Assembly: GCF_001605895.1 (NCBI RefSeq)
Contig: NZ_LUAW01000011.1
Coordinates: 1 to 64,000 of the forward strand
Length of the DNA: 64,000 nt
Reading direction: 5' to 3'
From: Acinetobacter pragensis
GTDB taxonomy: Bacteria; Pseudomonadota; Gammaproteobacteria; Pseudomonadales; Moraxellaceae
In this document: piece by piece, positions 6,006 through 24,317 of the stretch
How positions within the stretch are numbered: position 1 is the first letter of the stretch
How the letters are laid out: each line of letters begins with the position of its first letter
Translations under genes and position numbers: made by a program
Notes under the pieces: generated by a model
What the model was told of the DNA's origin: nothing
What the model saw: only the letters and a program-made list of their open reading frames with translations
Databases searched by the model: none

Positions 6006-7946
6006 ATGAAAAATAACTTTGTACATCAGCTTCGGACATTACCAGAGATTTTTGAGGGGAATTTTTTTTGTATCCCAGACTATCAGCGAGGGTATGCATG
6101 GGATGAAAAGCAGATTGATGAATTATTGAAAGATATTGATCATCTTCTTTTAGATACTTCAGCCGTTAGGCACTATACAGGTACACTTGTTTTATCACTG
6201 AATAAAGATCAGTCTAATCAATATCATATTGTAGATGGTCAACAGCGGTTAACTACCTTGGTTATTTTTTTAAAATGTATTTCTCTATTTGCTGATAGAG
6301 AGGACAAAGAGAGTATTGGCACCAAATATTTAAAGCGTGGTGATATTGGTAATGATCAGTTTGTTTTGAAGTTGAATTTAGATACTAATAAATTTTTTGA
6401 GAAAGTTATTTTATCTGATCGTAATTTAGAAAATTGCCCTATTACATTAGAGTCACACGAACGACTATTGAATGCTCATGATTTGATCCATAAATGGTTG
6501 ACTCAAAAAACTTCTTCAGGAGTTCTTATTACGCAGATTTTAAATGTTTTAGAAGAGCGTTTAGGGTTTTTAGTTTATTCGCCAGTTGAAGATGCTGAAA
6601 CTGGTATCATGTTTGAAGTGATTAACAATCGAGGTAAACAACTCAGTGAATTGGAAAAAGTCAAAAACTATTTAATTTATTGTTCAATTAAGCTATCTGC
6701 TTTTTCATTGCGGGATGATATTACTGAACATTGGTCTGATATTTTACAATCACTAAATAAAGCGAAAAAAACATCACCAAATGAAGAGAGTTCATTTTTA
6801 AGATATTGTTTGGTTGTATTTTTTAAAATGAATAAAACGGATAGCCAGTATGGGTATGATGTTCTTAAGGAAAGAATAAAAATAGATCAATGTTTGCAGT
6901 CCAGTGAAAAGAAAAATCAAACAATAACCAAACTACAAGATTTTATTCAATTTTTAAAATTATCTGCAAAATGGTACGAACATCTTTATGCCCCTAATTA
7001 TGTTGGGCTTGATAAAGCTATTCAACCACTAATTGAAAACATTCGTGCTCAGAATGTTCATGCTTCAATTATGCCCTTGTTTTTAGCATTGGTACTCAAA
7101 AATAAAGGTAAGGGTGAGATGCTTGAACGGCATTTACAATTATTAGAAACGTTAAATTTTAGAGTTTATATCGCTAACGGCATGACATTTAGAAAAGATA
7201 CAGGTCAGGGTGACTTATACCAGTATGCGAGTAGGTACTACTATGGGAGTTTGTTAAACAGTTTTATTGCAGAGGAGAATAGAGTAGTTGGAAAAACAAC
7301 ACTAACAAATGATGACCAAGCATTGGAATATTTACTGGTTAGTTTTACTCAAAATCTTGCGCATGATGGTTGGTTCGAAGCCTCATTTTATTTGGATGGT
7401 AAGAGTTCTTTTGATTTTTATGGGTGGAGAGGACTTCGCTACTTCTTAATGAACTATGAATCTTCTTTACAACCTAATAAGACTATTAATATAGATAAGA
7501 TTTTAAAGAGTAGATCATCTGGTAAAACCAATGATTATTTGTCGGTAGAGCATTTGTGGGCGACAGAGAATAGAAATTTTGAGGGACAAAATTGTAGAGA
7601 AGTTGATCGTTATCAAAAAAGAAGACTTGGAAATTTCGTCTTACTTGAACTCCGTTTAAATATTCAAGGTACTAATGATGATGCATGGGTTAAAGCAGAT
7701 CGATATCTTGACGGGTTTGAACAAGAAGCTCCAACAGATTTATATCATGTACGACTAGCAGGTAAAAGTGTTCGGAAAACCTTTAACACTGTGAGTGATG
7801 TCAAGAAAACTATTAATTATTATTCTGATTTTTATAGTGAAATTATTGATGAACAGGAAGAGCGTTACATTAAGTTTGCGATGAAAAGATGGTCATTAAA
7901 GGGGTATATTGGTTATAAAAAATATCACGAAGAGTTAGAAAATTAA
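6006..7946 (+). CDS. DUF262/DUF1524 (GmrSD-like) predicted defence nuclease
   Basis: The 646-residue protein has an N-terminal DUF262 (ParB/Srx-like) domain: an IPDYQRGYAWDEKQI motif (about 23-37) and the signature DGQQRLTT (about 77-84). A long helical middle follows, then a C-terminal DUF1524 HNH-like domain with VEHLWATENRN (about 515-525) and RRLGNFVLLELRLNIQGTN. GmrSD-type type IV restriction enzymes use the first domain for NTP hydrolysis and the second to cut modified DNA. Here both are in one chain. It is monocistronic, with a dyad after its stop, and directly precedes the type I restriction operon, so a defence role is likely. The substrate (modified phage DNA) is inferred. The composition is strongly AT-rich, in keeping with transfer. 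Confidence 0.8.
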   Translation: MKNNFVHQLRTLPEIFEGNFFCIPDYQRGYAWDEKQIDELLKDIDHLLLDTSAVRHYTGTLVLSLNKDQSNQYHIVDGQQRLTTLVIFLKCISLFADREDKESIGTKYLKRGDIGNDQFVLKLNLDTNKFFEKVILSDRNLENCPITLESHERLLNAHDLIHKWLTQKTSSGVLITQILNVLEERLGFLVYSPVEDAETGIMFEVINNRGKQLSELEKVKNYLIYCSIKLSAFSLRDDITEHWSDILQSLNKAKKTSPNEESSFLRYCLVVFFKMNKTDSQYGYDVLKERIKIDQCLQSSEKKNQTITKLQDFIQFLKLSAKWYEHLYAPNYVGLDKAIQPLIENIRAQNVHASIMPLFLALVLKNKGKGEMLERHLQLLETLNFRVYIANGMTFRKDTGQGDLYQYASRYYYGSLLNSFIAEENRVVGKTTLTNDDQALEYLLVSFTQNLAHDGWFEASFYLDGKSSFDFYGWRGLRYFLMNYESSLQPNKTINIDKILKSRSSGKTNDYLSVEHLWATENRNFEGQNCREVDRYQKRRLGNFVLLELRLNIQGTNDDAWVKADRYLDGFEQEAPTDLYHVRLAGKSVRKTFNTVSDVKKTINYYSDFYSEIIDEQEERYIKFAMKRWSLKGYIGYKKYHEELEN

Positions 7947-7951
7947 ATAAT

Positions 7952-7986
7952 TATATTTTGCAGTACGATAAAAAGTGCAAAATATA
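7952..7986. repeat. 11-bp inverted repeat upstream of the restriction operon promoter
   Basis: TATATTTTGCA at 7952-7962 is the exact reverse complement of 7976-7986, with a 13-base loop. It lies five bases after the DUF262 stop and just before the predicted -35 of the restriction operon. It may be a weak terminator, though the T-run after it is short, or an operator. Confidence 0.55.
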
Positions 7987-7987
7987 T

Positions 7988-8016
7988 TTGCTTTAACAAA
8001 GGAAGCATCGTATAGT
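7988..8016 (+). promoter_or_regulatory. Predicted sigma-70 promoter of the restriction-modification operon
   Basis: TTGCTT (7988-7993), a 17-base spacer and TATAGT (8011-8016, five of six consensus) give the best promoter in this gap. Transcription would start near 8022, exactly at the base of the first leader hairpin. The spacer holds TTTAACAAAG (7992-8001), whose exact reverse complement recurs at 8122-8131. Confidence 0.5.
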
Positions 8017-8020
8017 AACT

Positions 8021-8107
8021 TCACGCAGTAAAAACTCAGTACGAGTTCTACTGCGTGATTTGAAAAGTTAGGATTTGGCGATCAGATAACTTTTCAAAAC
8101 AAAATCC
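8021..8107 (+). ncRNA. Structured leader: two adjacent hairpins with a possible H-type pseudoknot
   Basis: Hairpin 1 is a perfect 10-bp stem, TCACGCAGTA (8021-8030) with TACTGCGTGA (8049-8058), plus an inner 5-bp stem (8033-8037/8043-8047). It abuts hairpin 2, a perfect 12-bp stem TTTGAAAAGTTA (8059-8070) with TAACTTTTCAAA (8087-8098). In its 16-base loop, GGATTT (8071-8076) is complementary to AAATCC (8102-8107) just outside, giving an H-type pseudoknot topology. There is no T-run, so this is not a terminator. It is more likely a cis-regulatory 5' leader of the restriction operon, whose start lies 77 bases further on, or a processed small RNA. The pairings are read directly; the function is inferred, and I do not recognise a known RNA family. 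Confidence 0.5.
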
Positions 8108-8184
8108 ACTATCACAGGAGACTTTGTTAAACAGATTATATCTGAAAAATAACGAAGTACTCCAAGTTTATTAAAGGAAGGACT

Positions 8185-8778
8185 ATGGAGACTAAATTAA
8201 AAAATATTGCTGAGATTTATACAGGGTTTACACAACGCCCCCTTGAGAAACCAGCAGTGACTTTTGATGTAAAAGCAATTCAAATTAAAGATTTATCCAA
8301 AGATCAAGTAGTTATTTCAGAAAATCAATGGTCAGAACTTGAATGGGCTTACGACTCAAGACCTCAATATTTGAAATATAACTCGATTATTGTGGTCGCT
8401 CGTGGAGAGCCAAAAGCCTATGTATTCAAAGGTAATGAATCAGATCAAGTTGTAGTAAGTAATCAATTTATTGTAGTGAATCTCAAAGTAGATAGCCTAA
8501 AGCCAGAATTTTTAGCTTGGTACTTTAATCATTCACAAGCAATGCGATCTTATTTTGAAATGAATAGTCGAGGATCATTGCTCATGATGCTCAGTATTTC
8601 GACCTTAAAAGAAGCTGAAATAGTTATTCCCTCTATGTTTCAACAAGAAGAGATTCTTCGACTTGCCGAAGAAGCACACAATGAAGCTTTAATATTCAAA
8701 CAATTGACAGCTTTAAGAGCTGAATACAATCAAGCGAAGAGCGAACAAATTTTAGTGCAAGCCAAAGTGGCGCAATAA
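8185..8778 (+). CDS. Half-sized HsdS-like specificity protein
   Basis: The 197-residue product resembles one half of a type I specificity subunit: a single target-recognition-like domain (LKNIAEIYTGFTQRPLE at the N-terminus, SIIVVARGEPKAYVFKG near 73-89, and LKPEFLAWYFNHSQAMRSYF), then a helical spacer from about residue 153 (QQEEILRLAEEAHNEALIFKQLTALRAEYNQ). Ordinary HsdS has two such halves. The AAAGGAAGGAC ribosome site precedes the ATG. It is the first gene of the operon, 28 bases before hsdM. It might dimerise to give an alternative specificity, pair with the full HsdS, or modulate the complex; which of these holds cannot be told from sequence. Confidence 0.7.
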   Translation: METKLKNIAEIYTGFTQRPLEKPAVTFDVKAIQIKDLSKDQVVISENQWSELEWAYDSRPQYLKYNSIIVVARGEPKAYVFKGNESDQVVVSNQFIVVNLKVDSLKPEFLAWYFNHSQAMRSYFEMNSRGSLLMMLSISTLKEAEIVIPSMFQQEEILRLAEEAHNEALIFKQLTALRAEYNQAKSEQILVQAKVAQ

Positions 8779-8806
8779 ACCGAATTTTTGAATTGGAGAA
8801 ATGAAA

Positions 8807-11044
8807 ATGACAAATGAAGTAAATCAACACTCACAACATGGCAAAATTGTAGGATTAGTTTGGAGTATTGCCAATATTATTCGTGGACCTTATCGTCCAC
8901 CGCAGTATCGTCGTGTGATGTTGCCGTTAATTGTATTAGGGCGTTTTGATGCGATTCTTGCACCGTATGCAGATGAGATGAAAGCATGCTATGAAAAAGC
9001 TGTGGCGAATTTGCAAGATAAAACCCCAAATGTCTTTTTACAAAAGCAGTTGAGCCAAATTGCGGATAAAGATCGTAAGCAAAATCTTTATAACATCAGT
9101 GGTTTTAATCTACAAAAACTGCTAGATGATCCAGATCAATTTACGGCAAATTTAACAAAATACATTGATGGTTTCTCACCTAAAGCGAAGGATATCTTTG
9201 CCAAGTTTGAATTTGCTAAAGAAATTGAAAAACTTGATGATGCAAACCGTTTATATAAAGTCTTTCAAGAGTTTCGTAATGGTTTGGTTGAATCAGGTTT
9301 AAGCCTTGCGCCTAGTAGTGTAAGTAACTTACAAATGGGCTACCTATTTGAAGAGTTAGTACGTAAGTTTAATGAACAAGCCAATGAAGAAGCTGGGGAT
9401 CACTTTACGCCTCGTGAAGTGATTGAACTGATGGTTAATTTGATCTTTGAAGAAGATCAGGACGAACTTGTTAAAGCAGGTGTACACCGTAGTATTTACG
9501 ACCCTACGGCAGGTACGGGCGGGATGTTGTCTGAGTCTGAAAAGTTTCTCAAAAAATACAATGACAAGATTAGCCTTGATATGTATGGACAAGAGTATAA
9601 CCCTGAGTCATACGCCATCTGTTGTTCTGACTTGTTGATTAAAGATGAACCTGCTGAAAACATTGTGTATGGCGATACGCTTGGTGTGAAAAATGCCAAG
9701 GAAAAAGATGGTTATGTTCCTCGTGATGGTCATGCAGATAAAGACTTTCACTATATGTTCTCAAATCCTCCTTTTGGTGTGGAATGGAAAAACCAAAAAG
9801 AATTTATTGATGAGGAAGAGAAGCAAGGCTTTTCAGGTCGCTTTGGTGCAGGCTTACCACGTATCAATGATGGATCATTATTGTTCGCTCAACACATGAT
9901 TTCTAAAATGAAGCCTTCGCCTGAAAATGGTGGGGAAGGCTCACGTATTGCTGTGGTATTTAATGGTTCGCCATTATTCACAGGTGATGCAGGCAGTGGT
10001 GAAAGTAATATTCGTCGTTGGATTATCGAAAATGACTGGCTTGAAGCGATTATCGCTTTGCCTGATCAGATGTTCTATAACACGGGTATCTATACTTATG
10101 TTTGGATTATTTCGAACAAAAAATCTGAACAGCGTAAAGGCAAAGTGCAGTTGATAGATGGTACGGCGCATTATCAGAAAATGGCGAAAAGCTTAGGTAA
10201 CAAGCGTCATGAGTTATCTAAAGACCATATTGCTGAACTGACGAAGTTCTATTCGAAATTTAAAGATCAAGACACCAGTGCAATGATTCAAACCAAAGCT
10301 GGTGAAGCGAAGGTGTGTTCGAAGATTTTTAATAATCAAGATTTTGGTTATTTGAAGCTGACTGTAGAACGTCCATTGCGTTTGAACTTTATGATTTCTG
10401 CTGAACGTATTGCCTTGTTAGATCAGCAATCTGCATTTGAAAACTTGGCAAAGAGTAAGAAAGTAAAAGATACTGCTGAAATTTCGAAGGAAGAGCAAAC
10501 AGGTCGTTTACAACAGGAAGCGATTAAAAAGGCACTTACAGCAAAAATTTCTGATCAGGTTTGGAAGAATCGTGATGAATTTTTAAAAGTCCTTGATCCA
10601 ATTTTGAAGGGATTAAGCTTTAAGCTTGGCGCACCTGTGAAGAAAGCGATTTTGGAAGCATTGTCTGAACGTGATCAGACTGCGGATGTCTGCAAAGACA
10701 GTAAAGGGAATATTGAGCCAGATACGCAATTGCGTGATACAGAGCTTGTTTCATTCCCTGAACATCTGACTTTACCTTTACCTGTAAATTATGACAAAGA
10801 GCCTGACTTATCTGAGTTGTTACCATTGGTTACAGCGCACTGTGAAGCTTATTTAAAAGCGGAAGTTTTACCGCACGTGGCTGATGCGTGGATTGATTAT
10901 AGTAAAACCAAAGTGGGTTATGAAATTCCAATTAACCGTCATTTCTATGTCTATGAGCCACCACGTCCTTTGGAGGAAATTAAGTCTGAGATTGTTCAGC
11001 TTGAGCAGGAGATCATGCAGATGTTAGGAGGTTTGTCTGCATGA
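8807..11044 (+). CDS. hsdM: Type I restriction-modification DNA adenine methyltransferase, HsdM
   Basis: The 745-residue protein has the N-terminal helical HsdM domain (VMLPLIVLGRFDAIL), AdoMet motif I DPTAGTGG (about 232-239) and catalytic motif IV NPPFG (about 320-324) of N6-adenine methylases. It methylates the host's target sites and forms the M2S core of the complex. It is longer than the usual ~500 residues; the ~200 extra residues at the C-terminus are helical and also seen in other large HsdM proteins. I prefer the ATG at 8807 over the one at 8801 because TTGGAG lies 8 bases before it and only 2 before the other. Its end overlaps hsdS by 4 bases (ATGA). Confidence 0.92.
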   Translation: MTNEVNQHSQHGKIVGLVWSIANIIRGPYRPPQYRRVMLPLIVLGRFDAILAPYADEMKACYEKAVANLQDKTPNVFLQKQLSQIADKDRKQNLYNISGFNLQKLLDDPDQFTANLTKYIDGFSPKAKDIFAKFEFAKEIEKLDDANRLYKVFQEFRNGLVESGLSLAPSSVSNLQMGYLFEELVRKFNEQANEEAGDHFTPREVIELMVNLIFEEDQDELVKAGVHRSIYDPTAGTGGMLSESEKFLKKYNDKISLDMYGQEYNPESYAICCSDLLIKDEPAENIVYGDTLGVKNAKEKDGYVPRDGHADKDFHYMFSNPPFGVEWKNQKEFIDEEEKQGFSGRFGAGLPRINDGSLLFAQHMISKMKPSPENGGEGSRIAVVFNGSPLFTGDAGSGESNIRRWIIENDWLEAIIALPDQMFYNTGIYTYVWIISNKKSEQRKGKVQLIDGTAHYQKMAKSLGNKRHELSKDHIAELTKFYSKFKDQDTSAMIQTKAGEAKVCSKIFNNQDFGYLKLTVERPLRLNFMISAERIALLDQQSAFENLAKSKKVKDTAEISKEEQTGRLQQEAIKKALTAKISDQVWKNRDEFLKVLDPILKGLSFKLGAPVKKAILEALSERDQTADVCKDSKGNIEPDTQLRDTELVSFPEHLTLPLPVNYDKEPDLSELLPLVTAHCEAYLKAEVLPHVADAWIDYSKTKVGYEIPINRHFYVYEPPRPLEEIKSEIVQLEQEIMQMLGGLSA

Positions 11045-12273
11045 GTCAGTTACCACGTTACGAAAGTTATAAGGATAGTGGCGTGCAATGGTTAGGGGAA
11101 ATCCCTAGCCATTGGGATGTTAAACGCATGAAATTTGTAGTCGCTAATGTCGGGGATAAAATTGATGCCAAAGAATCTGATCTTAGATATTTTGGTTTAG
11201 AAAATATTGAATCATTTACAGGTAAATTACTTGATTCAGTAGAGCTTGAAAGTGAGGGGATAGGTCATAGATTCCAAAAGGATGATGTACTATTTGGTAA
11301 GTTAAGACCATATTTAGCTAAAGTTTTTTTAGCTCAAGAAGAAGGTTTATCATCTACCGAAGCTTTGGTGTTTAGATCTTCTGAAGTAATTTATCCAAAG
11401 TTTTTAAGTTATTACTGTTTATCGCAAGATTTCATTAATGAAGTTAATGGAACAACTTTTGGTTCTAAAATGCCTCGAGCAAGTTGGGATGAAATTTCTT
11501 CATTTAGAATAGTTTACCCAAGCTTAGATGAACAAAAAATCATTGCAGATTTTTTAGATAAACGTCTTGCCCAAGTTGATGCTTTAATTTCTAAGCAAGA
11601 AATTTTATTGGAGAAATTGGCTGAACAACGTGTGGCTTTGATTTCTCATGCAGTGACTAAGGGTTTAAATCCTGATGTAGAGTTGAAAGACAGCAGAGAT
11701 GTTTTTTTTGGGAAAATTCCAAAGCATTGGAAATTAATAGCATTACATTTCATTGTCAGATTAATCAGTGGGGATAGTATTACTGCATTAGATTTTGTAG
11801 CAGATGGTGATTATCCAGTTTATGGTGGAAATGGTTTTAGAGGATATATTGATAGATATACCCATCAAGGTAATTATGTGCTAATTGGTCGTCAAGGTGC
11901 TTTGTGTGGAAACATTAACTTTGCCTCAGGTTATTTTTTTGCAACGGAGCATGCAGTTGTAGTTAATCCATTGATAGACCTAAATTACAAATGGTTAGGA
12001 TTTCTATTAATGGCAATGAATTTGAATCAATACTCAACAACTGCTGCTCAACCTGGGATATCTGCAGAAGTTATTGGTCGATTAAAAATCTTACTTCCTG
12101 AAATCGAAGAGCAAAATCAAATTGCTGATTTTATTGAAACAGAGCTACGAGGTATAGAAGAGTTGAAAAATAAAGCTATTGTCTTAAAAAATAAGTTAAA
12201 GGAATATCGCTCAACCTTAATCACCCAAGTGGTGACAGGGAAGATCGATGTTCGAAATCTTAAAGTAAACTAA
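11041..12273 (+). CDS. hsdS: Type I restriction-modification specificity subunit, HsdS
   Basis: The 410-residue protein has the usual two-fold plan. The first target-recognition domain begins SGVQWLGEIPSHWDVKR (about 13-29) and ends in a conserved helix (LDEQKIIADFLDKRLAQVDAL). The second begins FFGKIPKHWKLIAL (about 222) and ends with IEEQNQIADFIETELRGIEEL and LKEYRSTLITQVVTGKIDV. Each domain reads one half of a bipartite target. The recognition sequence cannot be predicted here. It overlaps hsdM by 4 bases, a sign of coupled translation. The half-sized HsdS-like gene at the head of the operon makes this the second specificity protein. Confidence 0.92.
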   Translation: MSQLPRYESYKDSGVQWLGEIPSHWDVKRMKFVVANVGDKIDAKESDLRYFGLENIESFTGKLLDSVELESEGIGHRFQKDDVLFGKLRPYLAKVFLAQEEGLSSTEALVFRSSEVIYPKFLSYYCLSQDFINEVNGTTFGSKMPRASWDEISSFRIVYPSLDEQKIIADFLDKRLAQVDALISKQEILLEKLAEQRVALISHAVTKGLNPDVELKDSRDVFFGKIPKHWKLIALHFIVRLISGDSITALDFVADGDYPVYGGNGFRGYIDRYTHQGNYVLIGRQGALCGNINFASGYFFATEHAVVVNPLIDLNYKWLGFLLMAMNLNQYSTTAAQPGISAEVIGRLKILLPEIEEQNQIADFIETELRGIEELKNKAIVLKNKLKEYRSTLITQVVTGKIDVRNLKVN

Positions 12274-12308: not shown

Positions 12309-15300
12309 ATGCATAGCGAATATTATTTTGAACAAGCTATAGAACACAGCTTAACAACAGATGGAGGCTATGTAAAAGGCAACCCTAAAGACTATGATCC
12401 AAGACTTGCTTTATTCCCCAGAGATATCGTTGCCTTTATTCAGGAAACGCAACCAAAAACTTGGGACAGAATTTATAGTTCATGCCAAGAAGAAACAGCA
12501 AATCGTATTGTCAATGATTTAGCACATGCCTTAGATACCGAAGGTGCTCTATCGGTTTTACGCCAAGGCTTTAGATGCTTTGGTAAAAAAATTAAAATGG
12601 CTTACTTTGCACCCAATACCAGCATCAATAAAACCACTCAAGAACAATATGATGCAAACGTACTTAAATGTACACGTCAGCTCCATACGGAATTTAATGA
12701 AATTCCAGATATGGTGCTTTCGTTAAATGGTATTCCATTGATCACGCTTGAACTTAAAAATGAGTTTTCAGCATCAGGCTGGAATGTGGAAGATGCCAAA
12801 ATTCAATTTAAAAAAGATCGGAATGCCAAAGGACGTTTATTTGACTTTAAAAAGCGCACCTTGGTTCATTTTGCAGTAGATACCTGCGATGTCTATATGA
12901 CCACGAAGTTGGATGGGGAAAATACGTTTTTTCTACCTTTCAACAAAGGTTATTTAAACGGTAAAGGTAATCCACCTGTAGAAGGTGATGTGCGCACGCA
13001 TTATCTGTGGACTGAAACTTTAGCTCGTCATAGCTTTATGGAAATCTTTGCTCGATACATGCATTTGAGTGTAGAAACCAAAAAAATTAGAACTGAAACT
13101 GGTTTTCGATATATCGAAAAAGAAACCGTGATTTTCCCACGTTACCATCAATTAGATGCTGTGCGTAAACTCACAAAACACAGTAAAGCCAATGGTTCAG
13201 GTCATAACTACTTAATTCAGCACTCAGCAGGTTCAGGCAAATCAAATACCATTGCTTGGCTCGCACATCAATTGGCATCGATGCACAATGCGGACAATCA
13301 AAAAATTTTTAATTCCATTATTGTGATTACTGACCGTATTGTACTTGATCGACAGTTACAAGAAACCATTGCACAGTTTGAGCATAAAGATGGTGTGGTA
13401 CAAAAGATTGATGAGAATACGCTACAGCTTACTAATGCCTTAGCTTCGAATGTACCGATCATTATTACTACAATTCAAAAATTTCCATACATCATGCAAT
13501 CTATTCGTACCCAAGCGAAAAAAGGAATTAAGGTTGATTTGAGTACAGAAGGTAAGAATTTCGCTGTTATTGTCGATGAAGCCCACAGTTCACAAAGTGG
13601 CGAAACGGCAATGGAATTGCGCAAAATTCTCAATAAAGATGGGATTGAATCTGCAATTGCTCAAGAGTTTTTAGATGATGGCGATGAGGATGAAAGTGAA
13701 CTCACAGATGATGTGAAAAAGCATTTATTTGCAGAAGCGTCAAAGCGTAGTCGCCAGCCTAATTTAAGTTTCTTTGCCTTTACCGCTACACCAAAATGGA
13801 AAACACTCGCTTGCTTTGATGAAGCGGGTGATAACGGCGAAGCTCCGTTTCATCATTACAGTATGAAACAGGCAATTCAGGAAGGCTTCATTTTAGATGT
13901 ATTGGCAAACTACACGACTTATGAACAGTACTTTAAATTAATCAAAATCGCTGACAATGATCCAGAACTTGCAAAAAATAAAACCAAAGCCTTAATGGCT
14001 CGTTTTGTTTCCATGCATCCAAGCGTGATCGCTCAGAAAGTAGAAATTATTGTCGAGCATTTTAGAACAGTGACGATGCACCGAATTGGTGGTCGTGCCA
14101 AAGCAATGGTTGTAACGAATTCTCGTGAACAAGCAGTACGCTATAAGCTGGCATTCGATGAATATATTAAAGAAAAAAAATATACAGGGATTAAGTCTTT
14201 AGTCGCTTTTTCAGGGAAATTAGAGGTCGATGGTACTGAATATACAGAACCTAAAATGAACGGTTTTAAAGAAACTGAATTACCTGATCAATTTGACACA
14301 GATGATTATCAAGTACTCTTGGTTGCTGAAAAATATCAAACAGGATTTGATCAGCCTTTACTACACACCATGTTTGTAGATAAGAAGCTATCGGGAATTC
14401 AAGCAGTACAAACCTTATCTCGTCTGAACCGTTGTGCTTATGGTAAAGAAGATACTTTTGTATTGGACTTTGTGAATACCCATGAAGACATTTATAAAGC
14501 ATTTAAACCATTTTACGAGTTGACTAAACTTGGCGATATTCCAAATGAGCAAAAGTTGAATGAGCTTGGTCATACATTGGATCAATGGAAGTTTTACTTT
14601 GAAGTTGATTTAAATGAGTTTGCCAATATTTGGTTTAAGGATAGAAGCAAGCTAACAGGGCATGAACATAAACAGTTGAATAGTATTATTGACCGTGCTG
14701 TTGATAAATATAAGAAAATTCATCCTGATGATCTTGTACATCAACAAGAGCAACAAAAACTATTTAAAAGCCAATTACAAAGCTATTTAAATTTATATCT
14801 CTTTGTCTCGCAAATCATGGACTTTACAGATTCAGAGCATGAGCAACGATATGCGTATTTAAAAGCTTTACTACAAAAGTTGCCTAAAGGCTCTAAAGAA
14901 AATGAAGTTGATTTATCTAAAATTGTTGAACTTCAATTTTATCGACTACAGAAGTTAAGTGAAAATAGTATCGATTTAGGGCATGGTGAAGCGAATGCCT
15001 TGAAAGGTTCAACGGATGTGGGAACAGGGCAGGCAGAGTCTACAGATAATGTATCGCATCTGATTGATGAATTGAATGAGGCATTTGGTACTGATTTTAC
15101 GGTAGCTGATCAATTGTTCTTTGATCAGGTTGAGCAAGCAGCTATTGAAAATGAAGAGATAGTACAAGCGGTGAACGCAAATTCTCTAGACAGTTTTACA
15201 GAGTACTTATCTGGAAAGTTAATTGATCTGTTTCTTGTTCGACTTGCAGGAAATGAGGAAGTCTGTAATAAGGTCATGAGTACGGATGAATTGCGTAAAA

Positions 15301-15362
15301 AAGTTGCTAAGCGATTGGCGAAGCATATTTATACACGGACAAAAAAGAAAGCTTCAAAATAG
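12309..15362 (+). CDS. hsdR: Type I restriction endonuclease subunit, HsdR
   Basis: The 1017-residue protein is a DNA translocase-nuclease. An N-terminal PD-(D/E)xK nuclease core is seen as PDMVLSLNG...LITLELKNEF (about 136-152). The SF2 helicase motor has Walker A SAGSGKSN (about 305-312), the DEAH box VDEAHSSQSGE (about 421) and motif III FTATPKWKT. The C-terminal part binds the methylase core. With HsdM and HsdS it would cut unmethylated foreign DNA far from the recognition site. It starts 36 bases after hsdS and ends the operon. All key motifs are intact, so the system looks functional. Confidence 0.93.
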   Translation: MHSEYYFEQAIEHSLTTDGGYVKGNPKDYDPRLALFPRDIVAFIQETQPKTWDRIYSSCQEETANRIVNDLAHALDTEGALSVLRQGFRCFGKKIKMAYFAPNTSINKTTQEQYDANVLKCTRQLHTEFNEIPDMVLSLNGIPLITLELKNEFSASGWNVEDAKIQFKKDRNAKGRLFDFKKRTLVHFAVDTCDVYMTTKLDGENTFFLPFNKGYLNGKGNPPVEGDVRTHYLWTETLARHSFMEIFARYMHLSVETKKIRTETGFRYIEKETVIFPRYHQLDAVRKLTKHSKANGSGHNYLIQHSAGSGKSNTIAWLAHQLASMHNADNQKIFNSIIVITDRIVLDRQLQETIAQFEHKDGVVQKIDENTLQLTNALASNVPIIITTIQKFPYIMQSIRTQAKKGIKVDLSTEGKNFAVIVDEAHSSQSGETAMELRKILNKDGIESAIAQEFLDDGDEDESELTDDVKKHLFAEASKRSRQPNLSFFAFTATPKWKTLACFDEAGDNGEAPFHHYSMKQAIQEGFILDVLANYTTYEQYFKLIKIADNDPELAKNKTKALMARFVSMHPSVIAQKVEIIVEHFRTVTMHRIGGRAKAMVVTNSREQAVRYKLAFDEYIKEKKYTGIKSLVAFSGKLEVDGTEYTEPKMNGFKETELPDQFDTDDYQVLLVAEKYQTGFDQPLLHTMFVDKKLSGIQAVQTLSRLNRCAYGKEDTFVLDFVNTHEDIYKAFKPFYELTKLGDIPNEQKLNELGHTLDQWKFYFEVDLNEFANIWFKDRSKLTGHEHKQLNSIIDRAVDKYKKIHPDDLVHQQEQQKLFKSQLQSYLNLYLFVSQIMDFTDSEHEQRYAYLKALLQKLPKGSKENEVDLSKIVELQFYRLQKLSENSIDLGHGEANALKGSTDVGTGQAESTDNVSHLIDELNEAFGTDFTVADQLFFDQVEQAAIENEEIVQAVNANSLDSFTEYLSGKLIDLFLVRLAGNEEVCNKVMSTDELRKKVAKRLAKHIYTRTKKKASK

Positions 15363-23709: not shown

Positions 23710-23812
23710 ATTAGCTCTTCCCTTTTTAAAGAGAGGCTGGGAGGGATTGTTCTTCAGCTGAATCAAATCCCCCTCATTTCCCCTTTAATAAGGGGGGAGA
23801 TAAAAGGCAATA
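23710..23812. repeat. Intergenic C/G-tract repeat, copy 1
   Basis: The stretch holds AAATCCCCCTCATTTCCCC then TTTAATAAGGGGGGAGAT, a C-tract/G-tract dyad, preceded by a second dyad around CCCTTTTTAAAG. The same theme recurs near 36398-36527 in reverse orientation and in shorter form near 42540. It looks like a dispersed palindromic element of the genome. Confidence 0.5.
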
Positions 23813-23813
23813 A

Positions 23814-23837
23814 AAAAGACCGCAATCGCGGTCTTTT
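23814..23837. terminator. Bidirectional terminator between fabI and secB
   Basis: AAAAAGACCGC pairs with GCGGTCTTTTT around AATC, with A and T runs on both sides. It serves the convergent genes fabI (plus) and secB (minus). Confidence 0.88.
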
Positions 23838-23858
23838 TTATGGCTGGAAGCTAAGCGG

Positions 23859-24317
23859 TTAAGCTTGGCCTTCAGCTGCAGCAACTTGAGCGCGTTCTAA
23901 ATTCGCTTCAAATTCTGCATCAAAGTTGATTGGTGTCAAAAGCAATTGCGGGAAGCTGCCTTTAGTGACCATGTCATTCACAGCTTCACGCAGGAATGGG
24001 AACAGGATGTTCGGGCAGTAAGCGCCAAGAATGTACGGAAGGCGTTCTTCTTCTACAGCATCAATCAAGAAAATACCTGACTGAGTGACATCAACGATAA
24101 ATGCAGTATCGCCTGCATTATTCGCTTGAACCACAACTTTTAAAGCCACTTCAAAGTGAGTCGGGTCAATTTTTTCAGCAGAAGATGACAGGTTAATGTT
24201 CAGTTCCGGCTGCCATTCTTTGGTAAATACTTGAGCCCCAGGCACTTCAAAAGAAATATCTTTAGTATAAATGCGCTCTAACGCCAGTTGCGGTTGAACT
24301 TGTTGTTCTTCACTCAT
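23859..24317 (-). CDS. secB: Protein-export chaperone SecB
   Basis: The 152-residue protein keeps secretory precursors unfolded and passes them to SecA. It has the SecB landmarks: [17 protein letters not shown] near the N-terminus, [12 protein letters not shown], and the C-terminal [29 protein letters not shown]-type core. I take the start at 24317, since AAGGATTACAG precedes it. The frame stays open for 24 more codons upstream, but they have no ribosome site. It follows grxC and a rhodanese gene on the same strand, the order known from other gammaproteobacteria. Confidence 0.95.

Follow-up and report, generated by a model that had tools for sequence, protein, structure and literature searches.

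A putative structured 5' leader in front of a Type I restriction operon of Acinetobacter that begins with a half HsdS gene

Known control of restriction operons and the Acinetobacter locus

A paired 5' end protects mRNA in Escherichia coli, as in the leaders of ompA and papA. Among restriction-modification (R-M) systems, antisense RNAs control the Type II systems EcoRI and Eco29kI (PMC3874152), and the operons of Csp231I and its relatives, which are controlled by C proteins, have leaderless mRNAs (PMC4824078). Half HsdS subunits, truncated or engineered, dimerise to give palindromic specificity (PMC6158711 and PMC3874165). Among the papers listed by searches of an open-access collection, none described a structured leader of a Type I operon in its title or the opening of its abstract.

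The window, that is, the whole stretch of 64,000 nucleotides of Acinetobacter pragensis DNA that was analysed, contains hsdM, hsdS and hsdR together and thus a Type I restriction-modification system. The preliminary description placed a dense RNA structure in front of a restriction operon. The leader does precede that operon; however, the gene directly behind it encodes not the nuclease but a half HsdS (half-S), a single-TRD S subunit in the same operon as the full hsdS. The features are as follows.

6006-7946, + strand: GmrSD_N/HEC-06-like gene, upstream, which adjoins the leader in every locus
7953-7985: AT-rich inverted repeat, 3' of the GmrSD_N stop codon and 5' of the -35
7988-8016, + strand: putative promoter, TTGCTT (7988-7993), 17 nt, TATAGT (8011-8016), with kept spacing
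8021-8184, + strand: putative structured 5' leader of the operon (fold z-score, conservation, stem pair counts)
8021-8058, + strand: hairpin 1, stem 8021-8030/8049-8058 (10 bp) and upper stem 8033-8037/8043-8047, with compensatory changes
8059-8098, + strand: hairpin 2, 12 bp, 8059-8070/8087-8098, flush against hairpin 1, with a compensatory change at 8067-8090
8071-8107, + strand: proposed pseudoknot, 8071-8076 with 8102-8107 (76.7% of 30 cells paired, no compensation)
8099-8116, + strand: unpaired linker, conserved in the alignment, ACAAAA(TC or CT)CACT(A/T)ATCACA
8117-8163, + strand: hairpin 3, GGAG 8117-8120/CUCC 8160-8163, 8121-8129/8150-8158 and apical 8132-8136/8140-8144 (fold, pair counts)
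8160-8190, + strand: alternative hairpin 4, which encloses the start codon together with the SD at about 8173-8180 and shares CUCC with hairpin 3
8185-8778, + strand: half-S gene, the first one 3' of the leader, for a protein of 197 aa with a single Methylase_S domain
8801-11044, + strand: hsdM
11041-12273, + strand: hsdS
12309-15362, + strand: hsdR

As with the 5'-terminal stem-loops of E. coli ompA and papA, a stable stem of the window leader would begin 0-3 nt from the predicted 5' end, in a long untranslated leader; unlike them, the window leader also has a conserved linker and a second and third conserved hairpin, and its 5' end is a predicted one. It resembles translational switches (riboswitches, thermometers, autoregulatory leaders) in that the alternative hairpin 4 would place the start codon in the stem and the SD in the loop in 5/5 loci. 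It differs from them in that it has no Rfam match, no identified ligand or sensing domain, and a bistability that does not exceed that of shuffled sequences. Control of the R-M operon would act at the RNA level, as it does for EcoRI and Eco29kI, but here the operon is of Type I and the structure is in its sense strand, unlike the antisense RNAs of PMC3874152. Control would also sit at the front of the operon, as for Csp231I, whose transcripts have almost no leader (PMC4824078), whereas the window leader is about 164 nt long and structured; none of the annotated neighbours was identified as a C-protein gene. As in the half HsdS cases, the gene behind the leader encodes a single-TRD S subunit, but in contrast to the truncated or engineered subunits of PMC6158711 and PMC3874165, it stands beside a full hsdS in one operon.

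Similar gene orders occur at a distance. The arrangement of a half-S before hsdM, followed by a full hsdS and hsdR, recurs among distant relatives of half-S, which occur in 20 plasmid records (24-32% identity) and in 10 other Acinetobacter genomes; the gene order itself was read in two loci (L023 and L025), which lack the window's leader. The window is rich in defence genes between 4932 and 18300 (recombination-directionality-factor-like, GmrSD_N, the Type I system, IrrE-like peptidase, SoFic-like). For the half-S protein of 8185-8778, a comparison of four half-S sequences shows near-invariant residues at 104-197, with two variable positions at 101-104, and two classes of alleles of the N-terminal TRD. 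The predicted structure model of half-S (pLDDT 43.9) was too poor for use. At the start of hsdS (window 11016-11041), whose ATG overlaps the hsdM stop, a hairpin TGCAGA...AGGAGG...TCTGCA carries the SD in its loop; together with the overlap, it suggests that translation of hsdS is coupled to that of hsdM. L005, L006 and L007 share the arrangement, and L068 nearly does.

Structure and conservation of the leader

RNA of 8019-8184 folds at -50 kcal/mol with a z-score of -6.70, and 0/200 shuffles folded as well, so the structure that was described as dense is indeed beyond chance. The perfect 10-bp stem and the abutting perfect 12-bp stem are read directly in the sequence. Two features were absent from the preliminary description: the 5-bp upper stem of hairpin 1 and the long hairpin 3. 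The minus strand of the leader folds nearly as well (z -6.81), which palindromes would lead one to expect. A scan in 166-nt stretches with a step of 10, corrected for GC content, placed 8011-8176 in 4th position for the + strand and in 2nd position for the - strand. The strongest GC-corrected fold of the window, 23711-23876, lies behind an enoyl-ACP reductase-like gene; it contains AAATCCCCCT...GGGGGGAG, similar to a terminator hairpin at L004 1500-1550.

A search of genome contigs led to three half-S loci, L005 (Acinetobacter sp. ANC 4173), L006 (A. baylyi DSM 14961) and L007 (an uncultured Acinetobacter; L002 is the same place). With L003, of the same genus, and the window, there are five distinct leaders. 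In the four further loci as in the window (5/5), the leader lies between the GmrSD_N gene and the single-TRD half HsdS gene. Model R1, built from the five leaders, gave 6 matches at E <= 0.1 in 175 genomes of the genus: the five family members and one terminator. Close half-S genes (at least 86% identity) and the GmrSD_N gene were each found in 5/175 genus genomes, with distant half-S genes (23-30%) in 10 more; hsdM was at least 96% identical in 5 genomes and at most 55% identical in another 43. Since these are the same five genomes each time, the GmrSD_N gene, the leader and half-S/hsdM travel together. Identity to the window among the loci is 96-98% for hsdM, 92-98% for the available parts of hsdR, 86-98% for half-S and 81-89% for GmrSD_N; hsdS identity among the loci is only 35-39%.

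Elsewhere the leader was not found. Against 331 genomes of the class, the sole match of model R1 was the window's own, with none in the other 330; the model detected no leader in the 10 distant half-S loci or in 4 plasmid loci, and no further members turned up in plasmid DNA or in phages and viral contigs with half-S. The only match in E. coli was to part of hsdM (176/5426 genomes; 9% of the query among the matches listed). Outside the genus, tblastn gave no half-S for the relatives of hsdM (59-63% identity); of their three contigs, two stop shortly past hsdM, which leaves L065 as the only informative one. Several matches were rejected. L004 (E 3.4e-4) and L062 (E 0.088) both lie at the end of a gene that we take to be miaE-like, beside a tRNA, where there is a terminator-like hairpin; G000:C67:52530-52656 (E 0.74) and L020 (E 2.4) were dropped as chance or unrelated; and two IMG/VR hits with a 19-base pattern from the leader fall within coding frames that are unrelated to it. 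The leader model also weakly matches the minus strand of the window at 7943-8059 (18 bits; E 0.052 in one search and 0.96 in another), which probably reflects palindromes matching palindromes. The earlier remark that no matching RNA family was known holds for Rfam 15, which gave 0 matches in the window at the gathering score; mir-322, the best below threshold (21.8 vs 62 bits), and sau-53 were discarded as far below threshold.

The stems are preserved across the family. In a MAFFT alignment of the five sequences (A2), the 45 pairs make 225 cells, of which 99.1% are paired, with 5 compensated cells at 3 pairs. Both sides changed at 8024-8055 and 8034-8046 in hairpin 1 (L006 and L007) and at 8067-8090 in hairpin 2 (L003). 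None of 500 shuffles equalled the alignment in percentage of pairing, in compensated cells or in covariation score, while 52/500 reached the count of pairs changed on both sides and 500/500 the count of further pair types. Random placement of the 13 variable stem columns yielded 9.1 broken and 0.39 compensated cells on average, compared with 2 broken (P 0.00175) and 5 compensated cells (0/20,000) in the alignment. These tests use only five sequences and ignore shared descent; two of the three changes occur in both L006 and L007, so there were three independent compensatory events at most. Among paired positions 13/90 columns vary, as against 25/63 unpaired ones. The helices of hairpin 3 are paired in 98.5% and 100% of cells and show no compensatory change because they barely vary. 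Leaders of the relatives also fold strongly (z -7.54 in L003, -8.16 in L006 and -7.20 in L007). Hairpins 1 and 2 are flush in the folds of 5/5 loci, including L003, where an A inserted at the base of hairpin 1 pairs with the U before it.

The leader is also conserved in sequence. Its identity (8021-8184) over the ten locus pairs is 0.866-0.994, compared with 0.644-0.890 at the fourfold sites of half-S and 0.724-0.879 at those of hsdM, and it exceeds both in 10/10 pairs. The margin is narrow for L007-L003 (leader 0.866 vs hsdM fourfold 0.849); Fisher P values for leader vs half-S fourfold sites, computed for three of the ten pairs, were 1.8e-7, 1.3e-4 and 4.6e-6. However, 8520-8850, which covers part of half-S and the start of hsdM, is 93-100% identical and thus conserved like the leader, which indicates that recombination made conservation patchy and that local recombination may inflate that of the leader. 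Identity between window and L005 is 99.4% for the leader but drops to 64.9% in 7947-8020, which places a sharp boundary at the predicted transcript start.

Upstream, the elements of a promoter are kept. TTGCTT-17-TATAGT has 8/12 consensus matches and was not listed by the consensus scan, so calling it a good promoter was an overstatement, but the 17-nt spacing and similar hexamers occur in 5/5 loci: TTGC(T/A/G)T-17-TATAGT in 4 and TTGCAT-17-TACATT in L005, despite its diverged spacer. For a start at 8021-8025, the 5' end is predicted to be almost fully paired. The upstream inverted repeat reported at 7952-7986 is present at about 7953-7985; its core TTTGCA/TGCAAA pairs in 4/5 loci, and L005 is without one arm base. 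This AT-rich repeat is a candidate operator or weak terminator.

Pairing around the half-S start codon

CUCC 8160-8163 can pair with GGAG 8117-8120 in hairpin 3 or with GGAG 8187-8190 of the half-S start AUGGAG in 5/5 loci. In hairpin 4, with a predicted energy of about -7.5 kcal/mol in 5/5 loci, all of the 50 cells (ten pairs) are paired, with one-sided G-U/A-U changes at two pairs. The second codon of half-S is GAG in 5/5 loci; 11 genes of the window use GAA 277 and GAG 112 times. With 9-90 nt of coding sequence at 37 C, the pairing probability of the start codon is 0.29-0.41 in the window and L005 and 0.68-0.98 in L006, L007 and L003. The constrained ensemble differences in the five loci are +0.67, +0.73, -1.45, -1.39 and -1.44 kcal/mol.

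Shuffled sequences put these numbers in context. Hairpin 4 alone was matched by 4.05% of 2000 shuffles; when its arm was shuffled (300 each), the figures were 14.7% for the window, 1.7% for L006, 4.0% for L007 and 5.7% for L003. Of 62 collected gene starts, 9 fold at <= -7.4, among them three half-S and four hsdS of the same operon. In a control with 400 shuffled leaders, window-like bistability appeared in 40.5% and occlusion of the start codon in 43.5%. The bistability of the window leader is therefore not unusual, and this control weighs against the switch, which we retain as a hypothesis.

Such a switch would leave the half-S start codon free when hairpin 3 is closed; when hairpin 3 is open, CUCC 8160-8163 would capture the start codon, and CUC/UCC 8104-8107 would stabilise the open state. 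The half-S/HsdS balance would then set the amounts of M.half-S, with palindromic specificity, and M.S, and hence the onset of cleavage by a newly arrived system. We consider this scheme unlikely.

Weighing the explanations

We favour, with rather better than even confidence, the reading that approximately 8021-8184 is a cis-acting structured 5' UTR of the half-S/hsdM/hsdS/hsdR operon, which would set mRNA stability or half-S translation. The leader is probably a real control region, because stable hairpins are kept in the few known relatives. Transcription would begin at about 8020-8023 from a weak sigma-70 promoter; hairpin 1 would then close the 5' end and may slow decay as in the E. coli ompA 5' UTR. 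Less firmly, hairpins 3 and 4 may compete for CUCC 8160-8163 and leave the half-S start codon more or less exposed. The leader would thereby set the amount of half-S, and perhaps of the whole operon. The preliminary description had offered a cis-acting leader or a small RNA. Its first option is supported by conserved and compensated stems, the same place in 5/5 loci, kept promoter hexamers and the absence of a terminator in the leader. The second, a trans-acting small RNA made from the same interval and in front of the operon by happenstance, would account for the compact, strong and conserved fold and for the putative promoter of its own. However, intrinsic-terminator-like sites on the + strand occur only at 7423-7440 and 8902-8924, with none between 7441 and 8901, high conservation continues to the SD, and the leader was seen only in front of half-S. 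Since a terminator is lacking, a free small RNA is disfavoured, and we regard it as unlikely. The same lack of a terminator hairpin with a U-run in the leader led us to reject an intrinsic-terminator attenuator. Attenuation by a leader peptide, starting at TTG 8124 behind AGGAG, is hardly credible: a 16-codon frame exists in the window, L005 and L006, but AGGAG ends only 3 nt before the TTG, no terminator is present, and single-base indels shift the frame in L007, where it is open into half-S, and in L003, where it has 9 codons.

The pseudoknot drawn in the preliminary description depends on GGATTT/AAATCC (8071-8076/8102-8107). This complementarity exists, and the exact 6-bp match of loop and tail in the window and L005 (duplex -6.8 kcal/mol in each), with a shifted GAG/CUC pairing seen by eye in the alignment of L006 (-4.2 kcal/mol), could be taken to favour a pseudoknot-based regulator. 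We consider that very unlikely, because only the window and L005, 2 of the 5 sequences, have all six pairs; in register, L007 keeps 5/6, L006 4/6 and L003 2/6, the duplex is weak in L007 (-3.0) and absent in L003 (+1.2 kcal/mol), and 76.7% of the 30 cells are paired, uncompensated. The 10-bp match of 7992-8001 with 8122-8131, also described earlier, fares similarly: it is perfect in the window and one pair short in L006, and 76% of 50 cells pair without compensation. As both are present but not conserved, they are no better than chance. The third complementarity, TACGAT/ATCGTA (7964-7969/8007-8012), is present, with 28/30 cells paired across the five loci and no compensation. A CsrA site, considered because of GGA in loop 2, was rejected, as L006 and L003 have no GGA in that loop. 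The palindromes could instead act as DNA, as operators, a recombination site or a single-strand promoter like that of ardA of ColIb-P9, used on entry of single-stranded DNA; such promoters are known near anti-restriction genes (PMC3874165). The long perfect palindromes, the conserved inverted repeat 5' of the -35 and the about equally folded minus strand would agree with this, but the arms that pair the promoter region with 8122-8131 are not conserved and the + strand tolerates G-U pairs: U-G at 8125-8154 (window) and 8132-8144 (L003 and L007), and G-U at 8070-8087 (L006). These would be A-C mismatches on the other strand, so the sense strand likely acts as RNA, and we hold a DNA-level element to be quite improbable. 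We judge equally improbable that the structure has no function of its own and was inherited with a recently spread module. The small number of loci, five, and the equal conservation of the adjacent coding DNA at 8520-8850 would fit, but the compensatory changes, the few broken cells and the lower number of changes than at fourfold sites speak against it.

In conclusion, the leader is a new, narrow motif of a known kind. Avoidance of host killing by mobile restriction systems is known mainly for Type II systems with C proteins or antisense RNAs (PMC3874152, PMC4824078). A conserved leader RNA before a Type I operon whose first gene is half-S would be a compact, testable case of post-transcriptional control. 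If the RNA is passive, the loci still provide a defined five-member family in which to ask what long structured leaders are for.
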